Shown in pieces: positions 11,574 through 64,000 of a stretch of 64,000 nucleotides of DNA (position 1 is the first letter of the stretch; each line of letters starts with the position of its first letter). This stretch comes from Mesorhizobium koreense (GTDB lineage Bacteria; Pseudomonadota; Alphaproteobacteria; Rhizobiales; Rhizobiaceae). Both the position numbers and the translations under genes were made by a program. Below the pieces are notes generated by a model. That model was not told the origin of the DNA and did not search any database. It saw nothing but the letters and a program-made list of their open reading frames with translations. Location: NCBI RefSeq assembly GCF_031656215.1, contig NZ_CP134228.1, forward strand, positions 310,001 to 374,000, given 5' to 3'.

Positions 11574-14372
11574 CTATTTGTCGGCCGTCAGCCCCTTCAG
11601 CCTGTAGATCGCGTCCAGCGCCTCGCGCGGCGTCATCTCGTCGGGATGGAGCGCGGCGATCGCGGCCGCAAGCGCGTCGTCGGTCTTGGGTTTCGGCGGC
11701 TCGCGACGGACCGACACCGAAAAGAGCGGCAGATCGTCCACCAGCCGTTCCGCCTTGCCGGAAGTCTCGCCGGCTTCGAGCTGGTGCAGAACCTCGCGAG
11801 CCCGGTCCACGACCGCCTCGGGCAGGCCGGCAAGCCGCGCCACCTGAACGCCGTAGGAGCGGTCGGCAGCGCCGCGCGCGACCTCATGCAGGAAGACGAC
11901 ATCGCCTTCCCATTCCTTGACACGCATGGTGACGTTAGCGAGGCGCGGCAGCTTTTCGGCAAGCGCCGTCATCTCGTGGAAATGCGTGGCGAAGATGGCG
12001 CGGCAGCCATTCTTCTCGTGCAGATATTCGACCGCCGCCCAGGCGATGGAGAGGCCGTCGAAGGTGGCGGTGCCGCGGCCGATTTCGTCGAGGATGACGA
12101 GCGCGTGGCTGCCGGCCTGGTTGAGGATCGCCGCCGTCTCGACCATCTCCACCATGAAGGTGGAACGACCGCGCGCCAGATCGTCGGAAGCGCCCACGCG
12201 GGAAAAGAGGCGGTCGACGACGCCGATATGCGCGCGCTTCGCCGGTACGAATGAGCCGGCCTGCGCAAGGATGGCAATCAGCGCGTTCTGGCGCAGGAAG
12301 GTCGACTTGCCGCCCATATTGGGGCCGGTCAGAAGCCAGATCGCGCCCAGCTTCTCGCCACCGGCCGGCGAAAGATCGCAATCATTGGCGACGAAAGGGT
12401 CGGCCGCCTGCCTGCGCAGCGCCTGCTCGACCACCGGATGGCGACCGCCTTCAATCTCGAAGGCAAGGCTGTCGTCCACAAGCGGCCGGCAATAGTCCCC
12501 GCTTTCGGCAAGCGCGGCCAGCGCCGCCGAAACGTCGAAGACGGCAAGCGCCCCGGCACCGGCGCGGATGACGTCGGCGTGGGCGACCGCCTCGCCGACG
12601 AGCGTATCGAAGACGGAAAGCTCGATCGACAGCGCGCGGTCGGCGGCATTGGCGATCTTCGTCTCCAGATCGGCCAGTTCCGTCGTGGTGAAGCGCATGG
12701 CGCTTGCCATGGTCTGGCGGTGGATAAAACGGGCGCGTGCGGCGTCCGACCCCGTCATCGGCTCCTTATGGTTGGCGGTGACCTCGATATAGTAGCCGAG
12801 CACGTTGTTGTGCCGGATCTTGAGCGAGCGGATACCGGTCTCTTCCGCAAGATCGCGCTCCATGGCGGCGATGACGCGCCGCGACTGGTCGCGCAGCGCG
12901 CGCATCTCATCGAGTTCGGCGCTATAGCCCGGACGCACCAGCCCGCCGTCGCGCTTTAACAGCGGCAGATCGTCGGCGAGAGCCGCCGCCAGATGTTCGG
13001 CGAAGGCCGCGGGCAACGCGGCGACCGCCGCGCACACGGTCTCCAGTTCGGCCGGAAGCGCCTCGCGGCTCGCCAGTTCGGCGCTATCGCGGGCGGCTGC
13101 CAGCCCGACGGCGAGCGCGCCGAGATCGCGCGGTCCCCCCCTGTTGAGCGCCAGCCGGGAAAGTGCACGCTGCATGTCCGGCGCGCCCTTCAGCAATTCG
13201 CGAAGTCCGTCCCTCAAGCGCGGCTCGGCAAGCAGGAAGGAAACCGAATCGAGCCTGGCGCCGATTGCGGCCGGATCGGTGAGCGGCGACATCAGCCGCT
13301 CGGTGAGCAGGCGGGCGCCGGCCCCGGTGACCGTCCGGTCCACCGCCTTCAACAAGCTGCCGTCGCGGCTACCCGACAAAGTGCGGGAAAGTTCCAGATT
13401 GGCGCGCGTCGCCGGATCGATGAAGAGGGAGGCGCCAGACGCCTCGCGTTCCGGCCGTGTCAGCGGCGGTCGCTCGGCCTTCTGCGTCTTCTCCACATAG
13501 GCGATGGCGCCAGAAATCGCCGACAGTTCCGCGCGAGAGAACTGGCCGAGCCCGTCCAGCGTGGCGATGTCGAAGAAACGGGAGATGCGGTCGGCGGCGC
13601 CGGAAGAATCGAACAGGATCGCCGGCTGCGGGCTGACGATGCGGCCGAGCGTGTCGAAGACAGGACGGAGCGCCTCGTCGTGGAAGACCGGCTCGGCAAC
13701 GATCAGTTCGCGCGGATCGATGCGCAAAATGTCGGTCAGCAGCCGCGCGGGCGCGGTCTCCGTCACCCGGAACGTGCCCGTCGATATGTCGATCCAGGCG
13801 AGCGCCAGGCTCCCCTGGGTCCCCGTCGCGCCATGGCGCTCCTCGCCTCTTGTTCCGCCGTCGCCTTTTACGCGGCCGAGCGCCATCAGGTAGCTGGTCT
13901 CGGCCGCGGCAAGCAGCTTCTCCTCGGTGATCGTGCCGGGCGTGACCAGACGGATCACGTCGCGGCGCACGACCGATTTGGAACCGCGCTTCTTCGCTTC
14001 GGCCGGATCTTCCATCTGTTCGCAGACCGCGACGCGGTAGCCGAGCGCGATCAGCTTCTGCAGATAATCGTCGGCCGCATGTACCGGCACACCGCACATC
14101 GGGATGTCGTGGCCCTGATGCTTGCCGCGCTTGGTGAGCGCGATGCCGAGTGCACGGGAGGCCACTTCCGCGTCCTCGAAGAACATCTCGTAAAAATCGC
14201 CCATCCGGTAGAAAAGCAGCGAATCAGGATTGGCCGACTTGATCTCGATATACTGTTCCATCATCGGGGTTATGCCGCCTGCGGCGGCGGGCATCGGCGC
14301 GGCCTGCCCGGCGCTCTCCGGCGCCGGCATCCCCGCGAAGGCGGCTTTGTTGATGGGCGTTACGTCGTTCAA
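11574..14372 (-). CDS. mutS: DNA mismatch repair protein MutS
   Basis: The protein has 932 residues. The mismatch-recognition domain is near the N-terminus ([15 protein letters not shown], containing the F-x-E wedge). The lever/clamp domains occupy the middle. The C-terminal ATPase has Walker [15 protein letters not shown] and Walker [17 protein letters not shown]. It recognises base mismatches and recruits MutL. The N-terminus carries about 35 poorly conserved residues before [15 protein letters not shown], so the true start could be later. It diverges from the malic enzyme gene. Confidence 0.97.
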
Positions 14373-58143: not shown

Positions 58144-58605
58144 CTATGCCAACCTGGCCAGCAGTTTCAGGAAAGTCGCGGTCTCGCGTGCGTTGAGTGG
58201 CTCGAGCGTTTCCACGGTGATCCGTTCGGCGAGCGGCAACAGCCTCTCGATCATGGCCTTCCCCTGGTCGGAAAGGCTGACGACCAACCGACGCCGGTCT
58301 TCGCTATGCGCGGCCAGCGTCACCAGACCGCGCGCCTTCAGCCGGTCGATGACGCCCTTGATCGTCGCCGCGTCCATCGCAACCATCGCGCCGAGTTGAT
58401 TCTGCGAGGCCTCGCCGATCTCCGCCAGCCTGGCGAGCGCGGCGAATTGCGGCGGGGTGAGGTCGCCGATATGTTTCGCAAAGATGGCGATATGGCGCTG
58501 GTTCGCCTTGCGCAGGATAAAGCCGACCTGCTCATGCAGCCGGTAGCCCTCGTCGGCGCCAGCCTCCGCCTCGACCAGTTTCAGCTTGCCGACGGGGGCG
58601 GTCAC
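58144..58605 (-). CDS. MarR family transcriptional regulator
   Basis: The protein has 153 residues. The winged HTH reads LTPPQFAALARLAEIGEASQNQLGAM, then IKGVIDRLKARGLVTLAAHSEDRRRL, the MarR beta-wing. It likely senses an aromatic ligand and controls the upstream DUF1185-UPF0280-reductase-hydroxylase genes. It overlaps the DUF1185 gene stop by 4 bp, so it is in the same operon. Confidence 0.9.
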   Translation of the reverse strand: MTAPVGKLKLVEAEAGADEGYRLHEQVGFILRKANQRHIAIFAKHIGDLTPPQFAALARLAEIGEASQNQLGAMVAMDAATIKGVIDRLKARGLVTLAAHSEDRRRLVVSLSDQGKAMIERLLPLAERITVETLEPLNARETATFLKLLARLA

Positions 58606-59186
58606 CTCAATCCGTCCTCGCCCTTGACGTCCGCCGCAGCCAGACCCGCCATGCGGTTGTGGACGCGCGGGCCGCAGGCCATCGACAGGCAGAACAGGAT
58701 CTCGTCGGGGCGCGGGCCGTCCGGCATCGACACGGTCATGGCGTCGAAATGACTGCGCACATAGGCGGCGTTGGTATGGCCGAGCGGCACGTCGAGCGAC
58801 GCGCCGAATGCGCCGACCTTCATCGCCGACGGAACAATGGCCCTGGCGTTGCCAAGCCGTTCGCGCATGGCGTAGCCGCCCGGCACGTGCCAGAGCGCGC
58901 CGTGCTCTATTTCACCTGCCGCGCCGACGATGGCGCCCTTGCCGTAGCCGTCGATCAACGCGATGCCGCCGCCGAGCGCGGCGATCAGCCTGTCGGTCAG
59001 CATCAGGCCGAGCGGCTTCAGGTCCTCCATGCCAGGCTGCAATTCGGCGAAATATTTACCGGCGTAGGGATTCTTCACCAACGCCAAAGCGGCGGCGCGA
59101 CGGCGCGGCGTTTCCGGCGCCGGGCCGCCTTCGTGCAGGATTTCCTCGGTCAGCACAGCGATCTTGCGGATCGGGAATTCAGGCAT
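58602..59186 (-). CDS. DUF1185 ('amino acid synthesis') family protein
   Basis: This soluble protein has 194 residues. Characteristic segments are RRAAALALVKNPYAGKYFAEL, ALIDGYGKGAIVGAAGEIEHG and HFDAMTVSMPDGPRPDEILF. Structural genomics has solved relatives, but to my knowledge no reaction is established. It lies between UPF0280 (8-bp overlap) and the MarR gene (4-bp overlap). Its ties to a Mo-hydroxylase and a ring-reductase homologue suggest it processes the ring product, which is inference. Confidence 0.82.
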   Translation of the reverse strand: MPEFPIRKIAVLTEEILHEGGPAPETPRRRAAALALVKNPYAGKYFAELQPGMEDLKPLGLMLTDRLIAALGGGIALIDGYGKGAIVGAAGEIEHGALWHVPGGYAMRERLGNARAIVPSAMKVGAFGASLDVPLGHTNAAYVRSHFDAMTVSMPDGPRPDEILFCLSMACGPRVHNRMAGLAAADVKGEDGLR

Positions 59187-60264
59187 GTTGCGGCTCCGTA
59201 TGAGATTTGAAAAGGCGGTGCCCTACGTCACCCCCCTCTGTCCTGCCGGACATCTCCCCCTCAAGGGGGGAGATCGCACCGGCCGTCTCCGCCATCACCC
59301 CATCCGCAATCCCGGAGATTTCTACAGCCTTAGAGATTGGCCCGGGCCGCGACGTCAGCTGATCTCCCCCCTTGAGGGGGAGATGTCCGGCAGGACAGAG
59401 GGGGGTGCGGCGGGGTGCTGCCTTTTCCTGCAAGGCATTCCCGCAATCCCGCGATTGCCCGCCAAGGAATAGCGCCGCCGCCTCGATCAGCCCGCGTCGG
59501 CGATAGTCTTCGGCGACGGCCAATCCGCGATCGAGTGCGACTGCGATTTCCCGGCCCGCCAGCAAGCCGACATCCGTCGTCACTGGCCTTTCGCCGAGGT
59601 CGGTATCCGGCTGGATGGCGCAAGCGGGCTCACGGCGGATCGCCGGATGGCCGGGCAAGTCGACAGCGTTGGCGATAAGCGTCGCGGCGACATCGGCGAT
59701 CGCCGCATCCCGCGCCAGCACGGTCACCGCGTCGGCGATACCAAGCGAAAAGCTGCGGCCGCGCCAACCGCTCGTCGCGACGCCGCGCACGCGATCCTCC
59801 GAGCGGATGACCAACTGATCGGACAATCCATGCCCGGTGCCGGCGATCGCAGCTTTCATCGAGTGCCCCGGCGCGAGGTGGACGGCGATATCGCCGCCAT
59901 CATTGACATAGGCGCGGTCGAGGGCGCGACCAGCAAGCATCGCCGCCAGCATCTCGTCAGCGACCGAACCGGCCACCGCCGCCATCGGGGTAACGAAGGT
60001 ATCAGCGAAGCGCGAAGCCGCCGCCTCCATGCGGCGCGCCGTCGGCCCGGCAAAAGAGCGTGGCCGCGTCGTGGAAGGCCTGCGCAGTTCCGCCAATTCT
60101 TCGACCAGTTCACCCAGCATCGTCCGGAAGCGCCGGGCTGCCTGGCGGTAGCTCGCCTCGATCTCCTCCGGTGCGCCGAAGGCCTCGACGACCAGGTCGA
60201 TCGGGCCATGGTTCATATGCAGTCGACGTCCGTCCGGCAGCCAGACGATCTCGGGTCCGTTCAT
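59179..60264 (-). CDS. UPF0280 family protein with repeat-derived C-terminal extension
   Basis: The protein has 361 residues. The UPF0280 core fills about 1-285 (WLPDGRRLHMNHGPIDLVVEA, YVNDGGDIAVHLAPGH, VATSGWRGRSFSLGIADAVTV, IANAVDLPGHP), a fold I recall as ApbE-like. From residue 286 the frame enters an inverted-repeat mosaic element (PLCPAGHLPLKGGDQ through ISPLEGEMSGRTEGG), then reaches a stop within the next gene's start. Relatives are about 75 residues shorter. It overlaps the reductase gene by 4 bp and DUF1185 by 8 bp. The biochemical role is unknown. Confidence 0.85.
   Translation of the reverse strand: MNGPEIVWLPDGRRLHMNHGPIDLVVEAFGAPEEIEASYRQAARRFRTMLGELVEELAELRRPSTTRPRSFAGPTARRMEAAASRFADTFVTPMAAVAGSVADEMLAAMLAGRALDRAYVNDGGDIAVHLAPGHSMKAAIAGTGHGLSDQLVIRSEDRVRGVATSGWRGRSFSLGIADAVTVLARDAAIADVAATLIANAVDLPGHPAIRREPACAIQPDTDLGERPVTTDVGLLAGREIAVALDRGLAVAEDYRRRGLIEAAALFLGGQSRDCGNALQEKAAPRRTPLCPAGHLPLKGGDQLTSRPGPISKAVEISGIADGVMAETAGAISPLEGEMSGRTEGGDVGHRLFKSHTEPQHA
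59229..59407. repeat. Mosaic inverted-repeat element (family B, copy 1), inside a reading frame
   Basis: Two 46-bp inverted arms start CACCCCCCTCTGTCCTGCC and end in its complement, with about 87 bp between. Each arm carries the hairpin ATCTCCCCCTCAAGGGGGGA. The entire element is translated as the UPF0280 C-terminus. Near-identical arms are found at 61840-62003. Confidence 0.9.
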
Positions 60265-61799
60265 CGCGGCCTGCTCGGTGCATGGCGGAGATAGGCGAGC
60301 GGCGGCCATGGGTTCAGGCCCTGCGCGCCGGCGCCGCGGCGCGAGTTCAGATATTCGCCGCCGTGCGCGACGATGTCCTCGACCGTGCGGATCTCGGAGA
60401 CATAGCCGCCGAGCCGTTCGTAATCGTCGCGGCGGAGCGTGAACTCGATCGGTGCCACCAGAGCCGGCGTCGGCACGTAGCCGAAGGCATTGTCGGGCGT
60501 CCGCATGACGTCGACCATCAGCATGATGCCGCCGCCCGGCCACACATAGACCGGCGCCCCGCCGACCGTGACATAGGTCTGCAGCCCATGGACCGACCGC
60601 GTGAGGTTGACCGGGTTCTCCGTGACCCCGGCGCGGAGCGAGCCGCCAGCGCCGCCGACGAAGAGCACGGTGCAGAGCGCCGGCTCACAATTGTCCTCGA
60701 TCAGATCGACGGATTTGCGCAGCCGTTCCGGAAACGGCTTTTCGACCGGCTTCAGATCGTCGTCGAGCTCGAAATAGGCGAACTGCTCGCCGGTCGTGGA
60801 GACCATCAAGAGCGACAGACCGGGGCGCGCGCCCTTCTTCGGGTTCCATTCGCCGAGGATCTGCAGCGGGTCGGAGATGGTCGTACCGCCCCAGCCGAGA
60901 CCCGGTTCGGAGACCTTGAAATAGCGGCCAGGCGTCGAGCGGCGGCCGAGGATCTTTATGCCTGTGTCCTGCCAGCCGAGCACCTTGCCCGCCTGGTGCT
61001 CGGAAACGACGCCGGTGATGTGATCGTCCACCACCACGACCTCGTCGACAAGATCCTTCCATTGCGTGGCGAACATGCCGATGGTCGCCGAACCGCAGCC
61101 GACACGCATGCGATGCTCAGGTTTGCCGTCAATGATCGGCGCCTTGCCGGCCTCGACGACCACGCTGACACCGCCGTCGATAGTCAGTTCCACCGGCTTT
61201 TTGTTGCAGAGGTTGAGGAGCGCGTCGCAGGTCGCCCGGCCTTCCGCCTTGGAGCCGCCGGTCAGGTGATGCACGCCGCCGAGAGAGAGCATCTGGGAGC
61301 CGTATTCGGCGGTTGAAACATGACCGATCACCTCGCCTTCAGCCCGCACGGCGACGGTCTCGTCGCCCAGATGCCGGTCGGTGTCGATCTTCACCTTGGC
61401 GCCGCAATAGGAAAATATGCCTTCGGTCACGACGGTGACCAGATCGACGCCCTCGATTTCCTGGCTGACGATGAAGGGTGCGGGCTTGTAATCGGGATAG
61501 GTGGTGCCGGCCCCGATGGCGCTGACGAAACGGCGGCCGCTATTCACCAGTTCGCCGTTCCAGTCCTCGCCCTCGGCAAGGAAGGGCGTCACCGCGCCGC
61601 CAGTCTCTTCGGCATGCTCCAGGATGGTCAGCGGATCGCAGCGCACGATCCTGCCGCCGACATTGCCATAACGGTCGCAGGCGCCAGTACGGCCCTCGGC
61701 AATGTAGCACATGACCGGGCAGGCATCGCAGCGGATCTTTTCGGCTACCTTCTTCTCGCCCGGATCGTGCGTCTCGAAGCGCTCGGAAAGCTCGCTCAT
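60261..61799 (-). CDS. 6-hydroxynicotinate reductase-like iron-sulfur protein
   Basis: The protein has 512 residues. An N-terminal Cys cluster, C24-x2-C27-x3-C31-x9-C41 (CDACPVMCYIAEGRTGACD), should bind an Fe-S cluster. The remaining sequence (HVSTAEYGSQMLSLGGVHHLTGG and MRVGCGSATIGMFATQW) matches proteins annotated as 6-hydroxynicotinate reductase. In Eubacterium barkeri that enzyme reduces the hydroxylated pyridine ring with ferredoxin. The actual substrate here is unproven. It follows the Mo-hydroxylase gene and overlaps UPF0280 by 4 bp. Confidence 0.82.
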   Translation of the reverse strand: MSELSERFETHDPGEKKVAEKIRCDACPVMCYIAEGRTGACDRYGNVGGRIVRCDPLTILEHAEETGGAVTPFLAEGEDWNGELVNSGRRFVSAIGAGTTYPDYKPAPFIVSQEIEGVDLVTVVTEGIFSYCGAKVKIDTDRHLGDETVAVRAEGEVIGHVSTAEYGSQMLSLGGVHHLTGGSKAEGRATCDALLNLCNKKPVELTIDGGVSVVVEAGKAPIIDGKPEHRMRVGCGSATIGMFATQWKDLVDEVVVVDDHITGVVSEHQAGKVLGWQDTGIKILGRRSTPGRYFKVSEPGLGWGGTTISDPLQILGEWNPKKGARPGLSLLMVSTTGEQFAYFELDDDLKPVEKPFPERLRKSVDLIEDNCEPALCTVLFVGGAGGSLRAGVTENPVNLTRSVHGLQTYVTVGGAPVYVWPGGGIMLMVDVMRTPDNAFGYVPTPALVAPIEFTLRRDDYERLGGYVSEIRTVEDIVAHGGEYLNSRRGAGAQGLNPWPPLAYLRHAPSRPR

Positions 61800-61839
61800 G
61801 AGCGCCGCTCCACGAAACGGATATGCTTGCGTTCCTTCG

Positions 61840-62003
61840 CACCCCCCTCTGTCCTGCCGGACATCTCCCCCTCAAGGGGGGAGATCAAGCCGACCGCGCC
61901 GCCGACTCCCTTCTTTCTACGGCTTTGAAGATTCGGCCGAAGCGGTGACGACAGCCAATCTCCCCCCTTGAGGGGGAGATGTCCGACAGGACAGAGGGGG
62001 GTG
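61840..62003. repeat. Mosaic inverted-repeat element (family B, copy 2)
   Basis: Two 46-bp inverted arms match those of the element in UPF0280. It sits in the 214-bp gap between the Mo-hydroxylase stop and the reductase start, within one probable operon, where an RNA fold could affect downstream expression. Confidence 0.9.
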
Positions 62004-62013
62004 CCCCCGGCAA

Positions 62014-64000
62014 TCATCGCCGCGCCTCCCTGATCGCCGCCAGCACGCGAGACGGTGTCGCCGGCACTTTCGCGATCTTCGCCCCGGAGGCGTGGCGGAT
62101 GGCGTTGAGGATCGCAGGCGCGGTAGGAATCAGCACATGCTCGCCGAGCCCTTTCGCCCCGAACGGCCCTTCCGGGTCCGGCACCTCGACCAGGATCGAT
62201 TCGATGGGCGGCACGTCGCCGATGGTCGGGATCAGGTAATCGTGCAGGTTCTCCGTGCGGCCCGGAACATATTCCTCCATCAGCGCAAGGCCGATGCCTT
62301 GAGCGATGCCGCCCTCGATCTGGCCTTCGACCAGAAGCGGGTTGATGGCGCGGCCGACATCGTGCGCGGCGGTGATCTTGATAAGCTTCACCGTGCCGAG
62401 CTTCATGTCCACCTCAAGCTCAGCGATCTGCGCGCCGAAGCCGTAGACGGCGTAGGGCTTGCCCTGCCCTTTTGCGTCGAGCGCGGTGGTCGGCGCGTCA
62501 TAGGTCTCGACCGCGCGAAAGACGAGGCCGTCGGCATCGGTCTTCATCGCGCCAAGGTCGATCTCGCGCACGGCATCGCCCTCGCGCATGGTCAGGGTCG
62601 GGCCGTTGAGCGCCAGCACCGCCTTTTCCGAGACGTTGGCGAAGCGCAGGATCGCTTCGCGAAGCGCGCGGCCGGCCTTCTCGGCTGCCTTGCCGGTAAT
62701 GAAAGTCTGGCGCGAGGCCGACGTTTTGCCGGCGTCCGGCGTGATCGAGGTATCGGCGCCGACGAGGCGCAGCTTGCCGAGCGGCAAGCCGAGCGCGTCG
62801 GCGGCGATCTGCGAAATCACCGTATTGGAACCCTGGCCGATATCGACCGCACCCTGATGCAGAACGACCTCCCCCACAGGCGAAATGCCGATCTTGATGG
62901 TGGACGGGTTGGGCAATGCCGTGTTGCCGCAGCCATACCAGCAGGAGGCCACGCCGACGCCGCGCTTGCGCGTTTGATGGGCGGCGTTGAATGCCTGGGC
63001 ATCCTTGAGCGCACGCGCCCAATGCGGCTTCAAGGCTTCCAGGCACTCGACGATACCGGCCGCTTCCAGCACCTGTCCGGTGGCGGTCACGGAGCCCTTC
63101 CGGAATGCATTCTTCAGGCGGAACTCCAGCCGGTCCATGCCGATCCGGCCGGCAAGCTCGTCATAGAGCGTCTCTTGGCAGATCGTCGCCTGCGGCACGC
63201 CGAAGCCGCGAAAGGCGCCAGCGACTGGGCCGTTCGTGTGGACGGCGCGGCCCATCGCGCGATAGTTCGCCACGGCATAGGGACCGGAAGCGTGGACGGG
63301 CACGCGGTTCGCCACGGTCGGCCCCCAGCTTGCATAGGCGCCGGTGTTGAAGTCGCCCTCGAAGACCATGCCGGTCACCCGGCCCTCCGCATCGGCGCCG
63401 ATCGTCGCCTTCATCGAGCCCGGATGGCGCTTGGTGGTCGAAGCCATCGATTCAGAACGCGTGTAGGCGAGATAGGCCGGCAGGCCCGTCTTCAGCGCCA
63501 CCAACCCGATCAGAGGCTGGAGCGAGACGTCGAGCTTCGAGCCGAATCCGCCGCCCGTCGCGGTCGGCACGATGCGCACGTTCTCTGGCGCGAGGCCGAG
63601 CACGGCGGCGGTGTCGGCGCGGTCCATGTAGGGCGCCTGCGTGCAGGCCTTGATGACCAGCGTGTCGCCCTCCATGAAAGCATGGCCCGCTTCCGGCTCT
63701 ATATAGGCGTGCTCCACATACGACGTATCCACCGCGCCGATGACGGTGAAGGCGGCTTCGGCCAGCGCCTGTTCCGGGTCGCCGCGCTCGACATAGCCGG
63801 TGGTGAGAATGTTGTCCTGGCGGCCGATATGGATCGGCGCAAAGCCGTTCAACGCCTCCGCGGGCTCGAGCGTATGCGGTAGCACGGTCCATTCGATCGG
63901 GAAATCGGCCGGATCGAGATCGGCCACCGCCTCCTTCTCGCCGGCAACGAGCGCCACGGCCTCACCGCGAAAGCGCACCTCCCCTTCCGCCAGCGCCGGC
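62014..64000 (-). CDS. Xanthine dehydrogenase family molybdopterin-binding subunit, partial
   Basis: About 662 residues are visible; the N-terminus is cut off by the window. The region PALAEGEVRFRGE-AVALVAGE is from the a/b hammerhead. Mo-cofactor segments follow (TATGGGFGSKLDVSLQPLIG, GAFRGFGVPQATI, VDIGQGSNTVISQIAADAL), ending with catalytic Glu in AKGLGEHVLIPTAP. It hydroxylates a carbon next to a ring nitrogen or an aldehyde, using water. Fe-S and FAD partners may lie beyond the edge. Confidence 0.9.
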   Translation of the reverse strand, partial: PALAEGEVRFRGEAVALVAGEKEAVADLDPADFPIEWTVLPHTLEPAEALNGFAPIHIGRQDNILTTGYVERGDPEQALAEAAFTVIGAVDTSYVEHAYIEPEAGHAFMEGDTLVIKACTQAPYMDRADTAAVLGLAPENVRIVPTATGGGFGSKLDVSLQPLIGLVALKTGLPAYLAYTRSESMASTTKRHPGSMKATIGADAEGRVTGMVFEGDFNTGAYASWGPTVANRVPVHASGPYAVANYRAMGRAVHTNGPVAGAFRGFGVPQATICQETLYDELAGRIGMDRLEFRLKNAFRKGSVTATGQVLEAAGIVECLEALKPHWARALKDAQAFNAAHQTRKRGVGVASCWYGCGNTALPNPSTIKIGISPVGEVVLHQGAVDIGQGSNTVISQIAADALGLPLGKLRLVGADTSITPDAGKTSASRQTFITGKAAEKAGRALREAILRFANVSEKAVLALNGPTLTMREGDAVREIDLGAMKTDADGLVFRAVETYDAPTTALDAKGQGKPYAVYGFGAQIAELEVDMKLGTVKLIKITAAHDVGRAINPLLVEGQIEGGIAQGIGLALMEEYVPGRTENLHDYLIPTIGDVPPIESILVEVPDPEGPFGAKGLGEHVLIPTAPAILNAIRHASGAKIAKVPATPSRVLAAIREARR

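Follow-up and report, generated by a model that had tools for sequence, protein, structure and literature searches.

The window analysed here, a stretch of 64,000 nucleotides of Mesorhizobium koreense (NZ_CP134228.1, assembly GCF_031656215.1, positions 310001-374000 of a single 5.04-Mb contig), ends within an operon that encodes a molybdenum (Mo) hydroxylase, a homologue of 6-hydroxynicotinate reductase (Hnr), the proteins UPF0280 and DUF1185, and a MarR-family regulator. Our results indicate that UPF0280, a family without an assigned function, is a nearly constant partner of Hnr, and sequence homology makes it very likely that the operon serves nicotinate catabolism of the Azorhizobium/Eubacterium barkeri type, with 1,4,5,6-tetrahydro-6-oxonicotinate (THON) as an intermediate. 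The operon adds one more case to a pathway already described; the link between UPF0280 and Hnr is the new part. Taken as a whole, an explanation in which a THON-type nicotinate operon includes UPF0280 as a maturation factor of Hnr appears to us likely. The near one-to-one bond with Hnr provides a function-less family with a sharp, testable hypothesis, and UPF0280 could explain a covalent flavin on the ring reductase in genomes that lack ApbE.

UPF0280 accompanies Hnr

Co-occurrence was examined in three samples, drawn from the class (289 genomes), the phylum (299 genomes) and, around genome G475, a different order of that phylum (220 genomes); five genomes were counted twice across the samples, and the distinct totals are corrected for this. 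A scan of named genomes gave at least 588 Hnr relatives, of which the best 80 loci, many of them close relatives of one another, were kept. Gene-order labels were assigned with hidden Markov models (HMMs) from our own rough gene clusters, and an apparent absence may be a missed gene, particularly where a contig ends. Four alignments were used: A1 covers 22 of the 44 class-sample genomes with Hnr, A2 (26 rows) the window and 25 of 36 listed references, and A3 (37 rows) and A4 (31 rows) the window and named loci.

Hnr was found in 44 of the 289 class-sample genomes and UPF0280 in 48, namely all 44 Hnr genomes and four with weak matches below the cut-off. In the phylum sample Hnr occurred in 21 of 299 genomes, and UPF0280 in those 21 and in one more as a weak partial match. 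The third sample yielded Hnr matches in 21 of 220 genomes, or 18 when three short N-terminal ones (G613, G628, G699) are subtracted; UPF0280 exceeded its cut-off in 18 genomes, 17 of them shared with Hnr, and four matches below the cut-off (G682, G737, G754, G779) were set aside. In total, 77 of 78 distinct Hnr genomes also carry UPF0280, mostly as the next gene. DUF1185 was a frequent partner, present in 57 of the 289 class-sample genomes: 39 of the 44 with Hnr and 18 of the 245 others (one below the cut-off). The first-pass annotation had proposed both families as parts of the pathway, and these counts support it; its expectation of co-occurrence outside the species group is borne out for the Hnr and UPF0280 pair, which recurs in both of the other samples from the phylum.

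The association extends to gene order. Hnr is contained in 44 of the 47 class-sample stretches, and in 43 of these 44 it shares its strand with UPF0280, the last one ending at a contig edge; the same arrangement was seen in 79 of the 80 named loci, and in the remaining one (L129) UPF0280 is on another contig of the genome. Among the 17 pairs of the third sample, 14 are neighbours, one is separated by ∼14 kb and two are on different contigs. Across 124 Hnr loci, UPF0280 was found on the same strand in 122, a fused iron-sulfur (FeS)-Mo subunit in 119 and a flavin adenine dinucleotide (FAD) subunit in 107, and DUF1185 directly follows UPF0280 in 93, an association that exceeds chance. MarR matches were present in 23 of the 44 class-sample and 55 of the 80 named loci. 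Plasmid records numbered 26 with Hnr and 27 with UPF0280, the extra one being a plasmid of Hydrogenophaga BPS33. Both this exception and that of L129 are only apparent, since UPF0280 is on another contig in the genome of L129 and, in the plasmid copies examined, follows a remnant of hnr.

The Hydrogenophaga plasmid (L169) carries UPF0280 at four places, and the 25 kb inspected show IS1071 transposases next to it. Two of these places were examined (900-2037 and 11700-12846), and in both all that remains of hnr before UPF0280 is a piece of its 3'-end.

Relationship of UPF0280 to ApbE

The window protein scored 378.7 bits against the UPF0280 model NF003322 (cut-off 290). A search of the open-access literature found no paper on UPF0280, and none on 6-hydroxynicotinate reductase together with flavin. 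By sequence, the only convincing relative in the PDB is the UPF0280-like structure 2o34 (E 2.6e-11). The Pfam model of ApbE (PF02424) matches 11 of 26 UPF0280 rows at E values of up to 5 (best 1.1e-4), the window protein itself reaching 11.1 bits, under the cut-off of 25.6. When UPF0280 was compared with 25 ApbE sequences in hhalign, the match was given a probability of 91.7% and an E value of 7.8e-7 (for a single comparison) over 96 columns, so that homology to ApbE is detectable across the FAD-binding half.

The catalytic triad of Vibrio cholerae ApbE consists of Ser241, His257 and Asp285 according to a review (PMC12052999). The solved chain 6nxi of ApbE shows precisely the spacing of the triad, with Ser in a TSG motif, His in SHxxDP and Asp in AD, and chain 6nxj has a Gly at the position of the His; from this spacing and this Gly the triad positions are taken as identified. 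Two of the three are kept in UPF0280, as the Ser and the Asp align with residues that are invariant in 26 rows. Typical ApbE is membrane-anchored and periplasmic, as described in the same review, whereas UPF0280 and Hnr are presumed to be cytosolic. Of 61 Hnr genomes checked, several of them incomplete assemblies, 31 lack canonical ApbE, the window genome among them; one ApbE match, in G429, falls on the UPF0280 of that genome and was counted as UPF0280. The Hnr of E. barkeri reportedly carries a covalent flavin. UPF0280 becomes a candidate for attaching such a flavin because of its co-occurrence with Hnr, its homology to ApbE, the absence of ApbE itself and this reported cofactor.

We consider it somewhat probable that UPF0280 is needed for a functional Hnr. 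That it acts by covalent transfer of flavin to Hnr is a more tentative proposal, for which we would put the chances a little below even. Slightly more doubtful again is the idea that UPF0280 founds a second, cytosolic class of flavin transferases, related to ApbE but without its His, with a target site of its own and with Hnr as its sole client.

Probable assignment of the operon to the nicotinate pathway

At an E value of 0.001, neither Pfam nor NCBIfam offered a family for Hnr. Of its 26 plasmid homologues, 17 are annotated as 6-hydroxynicotinate reductase, three as "hypothetical protein" and six carry no annotation there. Eight cysteines are invariant in 22 aligned sequences, a number that would be enough for two [4Fe-4S] clusters. 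The sequence gave no match in the PDB up to an E value of 10, and a predicted model (mean pLDDT 70.5, with a poor N-terminus) gave none at 0.001 or better. With at least 588 relatives among the matches listed, Hnr forms a family for which neither a Pfam or NCBIfam model nor, by sequence, a PDB chain was found. The hnr gene of L084 and of genome G028 is split into two reading frames although the operon looks complete otherwise, which suggests a frameshift or a sequencing error.

The nicotinate pathway of Azorhizobium is reportedly treated in papers of Kitts from 1989 and 1992. A cluster for nicotinate degradation via THON was reported by Shettigar in 2012 (PMC3511419) in A. caulinodans, B. japonicum, R. 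palustris and strain SG-6C. There the reductase, which in SG-6C is 42% identical to the E. barkeri enzyme, belongs to a conserved cluster that also holds the genes for steps one to three, those of an ABC transporter and two conserved proteins of unknown function; from gene order we take these two to be UPF0280 and DUF1185. The first-pass annotation had described the module as a candidate undescribed one. As the cluster is already in print, the module is of a known kind and that description cannot stand, whereas the accompanying proposal of a reductive breakdown of an N-heteroaromatic compound in an aerobe finds support in homology.

The window operon shares with the cluster of A. caulinodans ORS571 and the Bradyrhizobiaceae the 6-hydroxynicotinate reductase in a conserved nicotinate setting, and its Mo hydroxylase is encoded together with FeS and FAD parts in one operon. 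No enamidase-type amidohydrolase for THON was found in the window genome, in a search without a positive control, and HyuAB is proposed in its place; we therefore claim homology to the THON-type cluster for the upstream part only. The Azorhizobium-type cluster includes an ABC transporter (PMC3511419), whereas neither a Liv-type transporter nor an amidohydrolase was seen in the 20 kb examined around the window operon; here HyuAB lies 12 kb upstream of the operon, and three palindromic repeats are present within it. The fermentation cluster of E. barkeri likewise has a Mo hydroxylase and an Fe-S 6-hydroxynicotinate reductase, in an anaerobe, whereas the window organism is probably an aerobe. This cluster was reportedly described by Alhapel in 2006, and its Mo protein is said to consist of two subunits, in contrast to the one fused FeS-Mo protein of the window.

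Nicotinate is the likeliest substrate because of the published homologous cluster, the divergently encoded nicotinamidase beside the window operon and a Neorhizobium plasmid (L167) on which a block of hnr, UPF0280 and DUF1185 lies ∼8 kb from genes annotated as nicA/nicB (nicotinate dehydrogenase). The nicotinamidase-like protein scored 207 bits against an NCBIfam cut-off of 174. With an HMM built from two sequences, PncA was matched in 36 of the 80 named loci, mostly of Mesorhizobium and near kin, and in only 2 of the 44 class-sample loci. The Neorhizobium plasmid also groups a ferredoxin-NADP reductase, a Liv-type transporter, MarR and hyuA/hyuB with hnr, and its two hypothetical proteins and "peptide synthetase" correspond by position to UPF0280 and two DUF1185. 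No FAD/FeS-Mo pair is annotated beside its hnr, and the first step has apparently been taken over by another enzyme, nicA/nicB.

In the pathway that we envisage, the nicotinamidase would supply nicotinate, which the FAD and fused FeS-Mo subunits, judged by their families, would hydroxylate to 6-hydroxynicotinate; Hnr, by homology an Fe-S enzyme, would reduce the ring of this product to THON. Opening of the lactam would then give 2-formylglutarate, through an enamidase-like amidohydrolase or a caprolactamase-like HyuAB depending on the genome, and presumably through HyuAB here. The products may be converted to glutarate semialdehyde and glutarate, with DUF1185 perhaps aiding the aldehyde stage. 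MarR would be the probable regulator of the operon, and UPF0280 would act as a dedicated maturation factor of Hnr, in this capacity most likely attaching flavin by a variant of the ApbE reaction.

Ring opening and DUF1185

Among the 44 class-sample loci, an amidohydrolase occurred in 11 and HyuA or HyuB in 16, and no locus had both (Fisher p 0.0034; p 0.0006 for the 32 loci of at least 18 kb). Since the two are never found in a common class-sample locus, they may be alternative ring openers. The HyuA and HyuB of the window genome reach identities of 66% and 77%, respectively, with the proteins encoded in the loci. In NCBIfam, HyuA is nearest to the caprolactamase subunit CapA (512 bits), and HyuB scored 314 bits against the caprolactamase model; both scores are below the curated cut-off of 1000, and we regard the pair as related to CapAB. 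Opening of the THON lactam by HyuAB in this genome is, by analogy, plausible.

DUF1185 scored 218.8 bits against PF06684 (cut-off 27), and its model has the same fold as chain 3byq_B (E 5.1e-26, TM 0.93); 3byq and 2qtp are the solved structures of the family. The paper on these structures (PMC2954203) describes a chorismate-mutase-like fold and derives the "amino acid" label partly from neighbouring branched-chain-amino-acid genes, including ABC transporters. This label for amino acid synthesis may mislead, since it leans on an argument from neighbours and the same type of transporter accompanies many nicotinate loci (a branched-chain-type permease in 20 of the 44 class-sample loci). Tandem DUF1185 pairs consist of two subtypes.

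Trigonelline is N-methylnicotinate. The homologue TgnF of the trigonelline pathway stimulates succinate semialdehyde dehydrogenase, as stated in a study of 7-hydroxycoumarin (PMC7913881), in which that study's own HcdD showed no such effect. TgnF and HcdD belong to the same family as DUF1185 and to the same kind of setting, the catabolism of ring compounds, but to pathways other than that of the nicotinate operon. As trigonelline is a nicotinate derivative, a role of DUF1185 at the aldehyde stage is a reasonable guess and nothing beyond that; we give action of DUF1185 at the formylglutarate/semialdehyde stage a low probability.

Alternative explanations

Several findings weigh against the explanation that we favor and should be considered together. 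With respect to the flavin transfer, the loop with the catalytic His257 of ApbE is missing from UPF0280 (26 rows aligned), and the target motif of ApbE, D-x-x-[ST]-G-A-[ST], occurs in none of 58 Hnr rows; the chemistry of UPF0280 would therefore have to differ. The most motif-like Thr of Hnr, T239 (GCGSAT), was considered as the flavin site and rejected, since 5 of 22 rows have Ala at this position. ApbE is present in 30 of the 61 Hnr genomes checked. The pairing also has its exceptions: G701 has Hnr without UPF0280 (its Hnr is cut by a contig end and the genome is 78% complete), and G661 is the only genome of the three samples with UPF0280 over the cut-off and no detected Hnr. In G737, of the same genus and 68% complete, a UPF0280 match of 62 positions (E 1.9e-8), which may be a true fragment, occurs without Hnr. 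As to ring opening, 17 of the 44 class-sample loci have neither the amidohydrolase nor HyuA/B, and the exclusion was not significant in the 80 named loci (2 with the amidohydrolase, 21 with HyuA/B, none with both, 57 with neither). A search of the window genome, made without a positive control, gave no match to the amidohydrolase of the loci, so that the lactam-opening step would rest on HyuAB by analogy.

UPF0280 could instead be a pathway enzyme or a subunit of Hnr, for example an enzyme that opens the ring of THON, or a carrier that brings flavin to Hnr non-covalently. The overlap of its gene with hnr by 4 bp resembles that of enzyme genes, the loss of the His loop points the same way, and no single ring-opening gene is found in all loci. 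However, UPF0280 accompanies Hnr whichever candidate ring-opening gene is present, and this constancy is more easily understood for a protein that works with Hnr than for an exchangeable step further on; the homology of UPF0280 to a family of FAD-binding transferases also argues against this reading, and we consider the enzyme or subunit role rather unlikely. A change of substrate seems less probable still: Hnr would then be a paralogue of altered specificity in an operon for another N-heteroaromatic compound, such as a substituted nicotinate, a pyridine or a pyrimidine. The families leave room for this, since the Mo subunit stays under the cut-offs of the xanthine dehydrogenase and similar models that it matches and its substrate specificity can therefore not be read from them, and extra genes differ between loci (Rieske oxygenases, for instance, in 8 of the 44 class-sample loci). 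Against it stand the report of a homologous nicotinate-degrading cluster (PMC3511419) and the nicotinamidase and nicA/nicB genes beside such clusters, which favor nicotinate.

Least probable of all is that DUF1185, rather than HyuAB, opens the ring as a Ser-Lys amidase in the manner of one cyanuric acid hydrolase domain. The domains of that hydrolase have been compared with the chorismate-mutase-like fold (PMC4051656) that is described for DUF1185 (PMC2954203), and Ser120 and Lys123 of DUF1185 are invariant in 31 rows. A Foldseek search with the DUF1185 model, however, returned only its own family convincingly, and no cyanuric acid hydrolase stood among the 50 listed of 463 matches; its reach is limited, as chorismate mutase was not shown either. 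The likeness was rejected, an E value of 0.001 or less having given three chains of the own family and one other (E 9.7e-4, TM 0.23). Moreover, DUF1185 was unseen around Hnr in 18 of the 44 class-sample loci, 5 of the 44 Hnr genomes have no DUF1185 at all, and for the homologous TgnF a different role, stimulation of a semialdehyde dehydrogenase, has been reported (PMC7913881).

Gene order and repeat elements

The five co-directional genes of the first-pass annotation are all present (Table 1), the Mo subunit being recognised by NCBIfam as well as by Pfam, and its statement that most junctions overlap by 4-8 bp is confirmed for three of four: hnr/UPF0280 by 4 bp (ATGA), UPF0280/DUF1185 by 8 bp and DUF1185/MarR by 4 bp. 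The fourth, between the Mo subunit and hnr, is a gap of 214 bp that contains a palindromic repeat element. The operon was also correctly expected to continue past position 64000, where the Mo frame goes on into an N-terminal [2Fe-2S] domain to give one fused protein (991 amino acids in total; Pfam MoCoBD_1, MoCoBD_2, Fer2, Fer2_2 and Ald_Xan_dh_C) and the gene of the FAD subunit overlaps that of the FeS-Mo subunit by 4 bp. Of the parts thought to be missing from the window, the FeS and FAD subunits were thus found, but an amidohydrolase and a Liv-type transporter were not seen in the 20 kb examined.

Table 1. Features of the operon and its repeats, in window coordinates
Feature	Coordinates	Strand	Evidence or remark
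Mo-binding part of fused [2Fe-2S]-Mo hydroxylase subunit, likely nicotinate dehydrogenase	62014-64000, on to window-equivalent 64989	minus	Pfam
Hnr (6-hydroxynicotinate reductase homologue), 512 aa	60261-61799	minus	58-70% identity to 21 relatives, plasmid annotations, cysteines
UPF0280, ApbE superfamily, proposed Hnr maturation factor	59179-60264	minus	NF003322
UPF0280 conserved core	∼59422-60264	minus	remainder is a repeat-derived tail
DUF1185 / AA_synth	58602-59186	minus	PF06684
MarR-family regulator, last gene of the operon	58144-58605	minus	Pfam, NCBIfam
Palindromic repeat element within 3' end of UPF0280 frame	59209-59427		adds ∼75 residues
Palindromic repeat element between Mo subunit and hnr	61838-62003		intergenic

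The palindromic element, of ∼170-220 bp, has three copies in the operon. The third, at genome positions 374323-374492 and thus beyond the window, lies in frame within the linker between the FeS and Mo domains. The 8-bp overlap of UPF0280 with DUF1185 is partly due to the element, since one copy makes up the last residues of UPF0280. Of the stretch that holds the linker copy, nearly all is missing in the relatives L102 and L111, and in L087, L105 and L109 the alignment is continuous through it. Elsewhere in the genome the element occurs at 30 or so further places at least, a lower bound from the 40 of 311 candidates that were scored.

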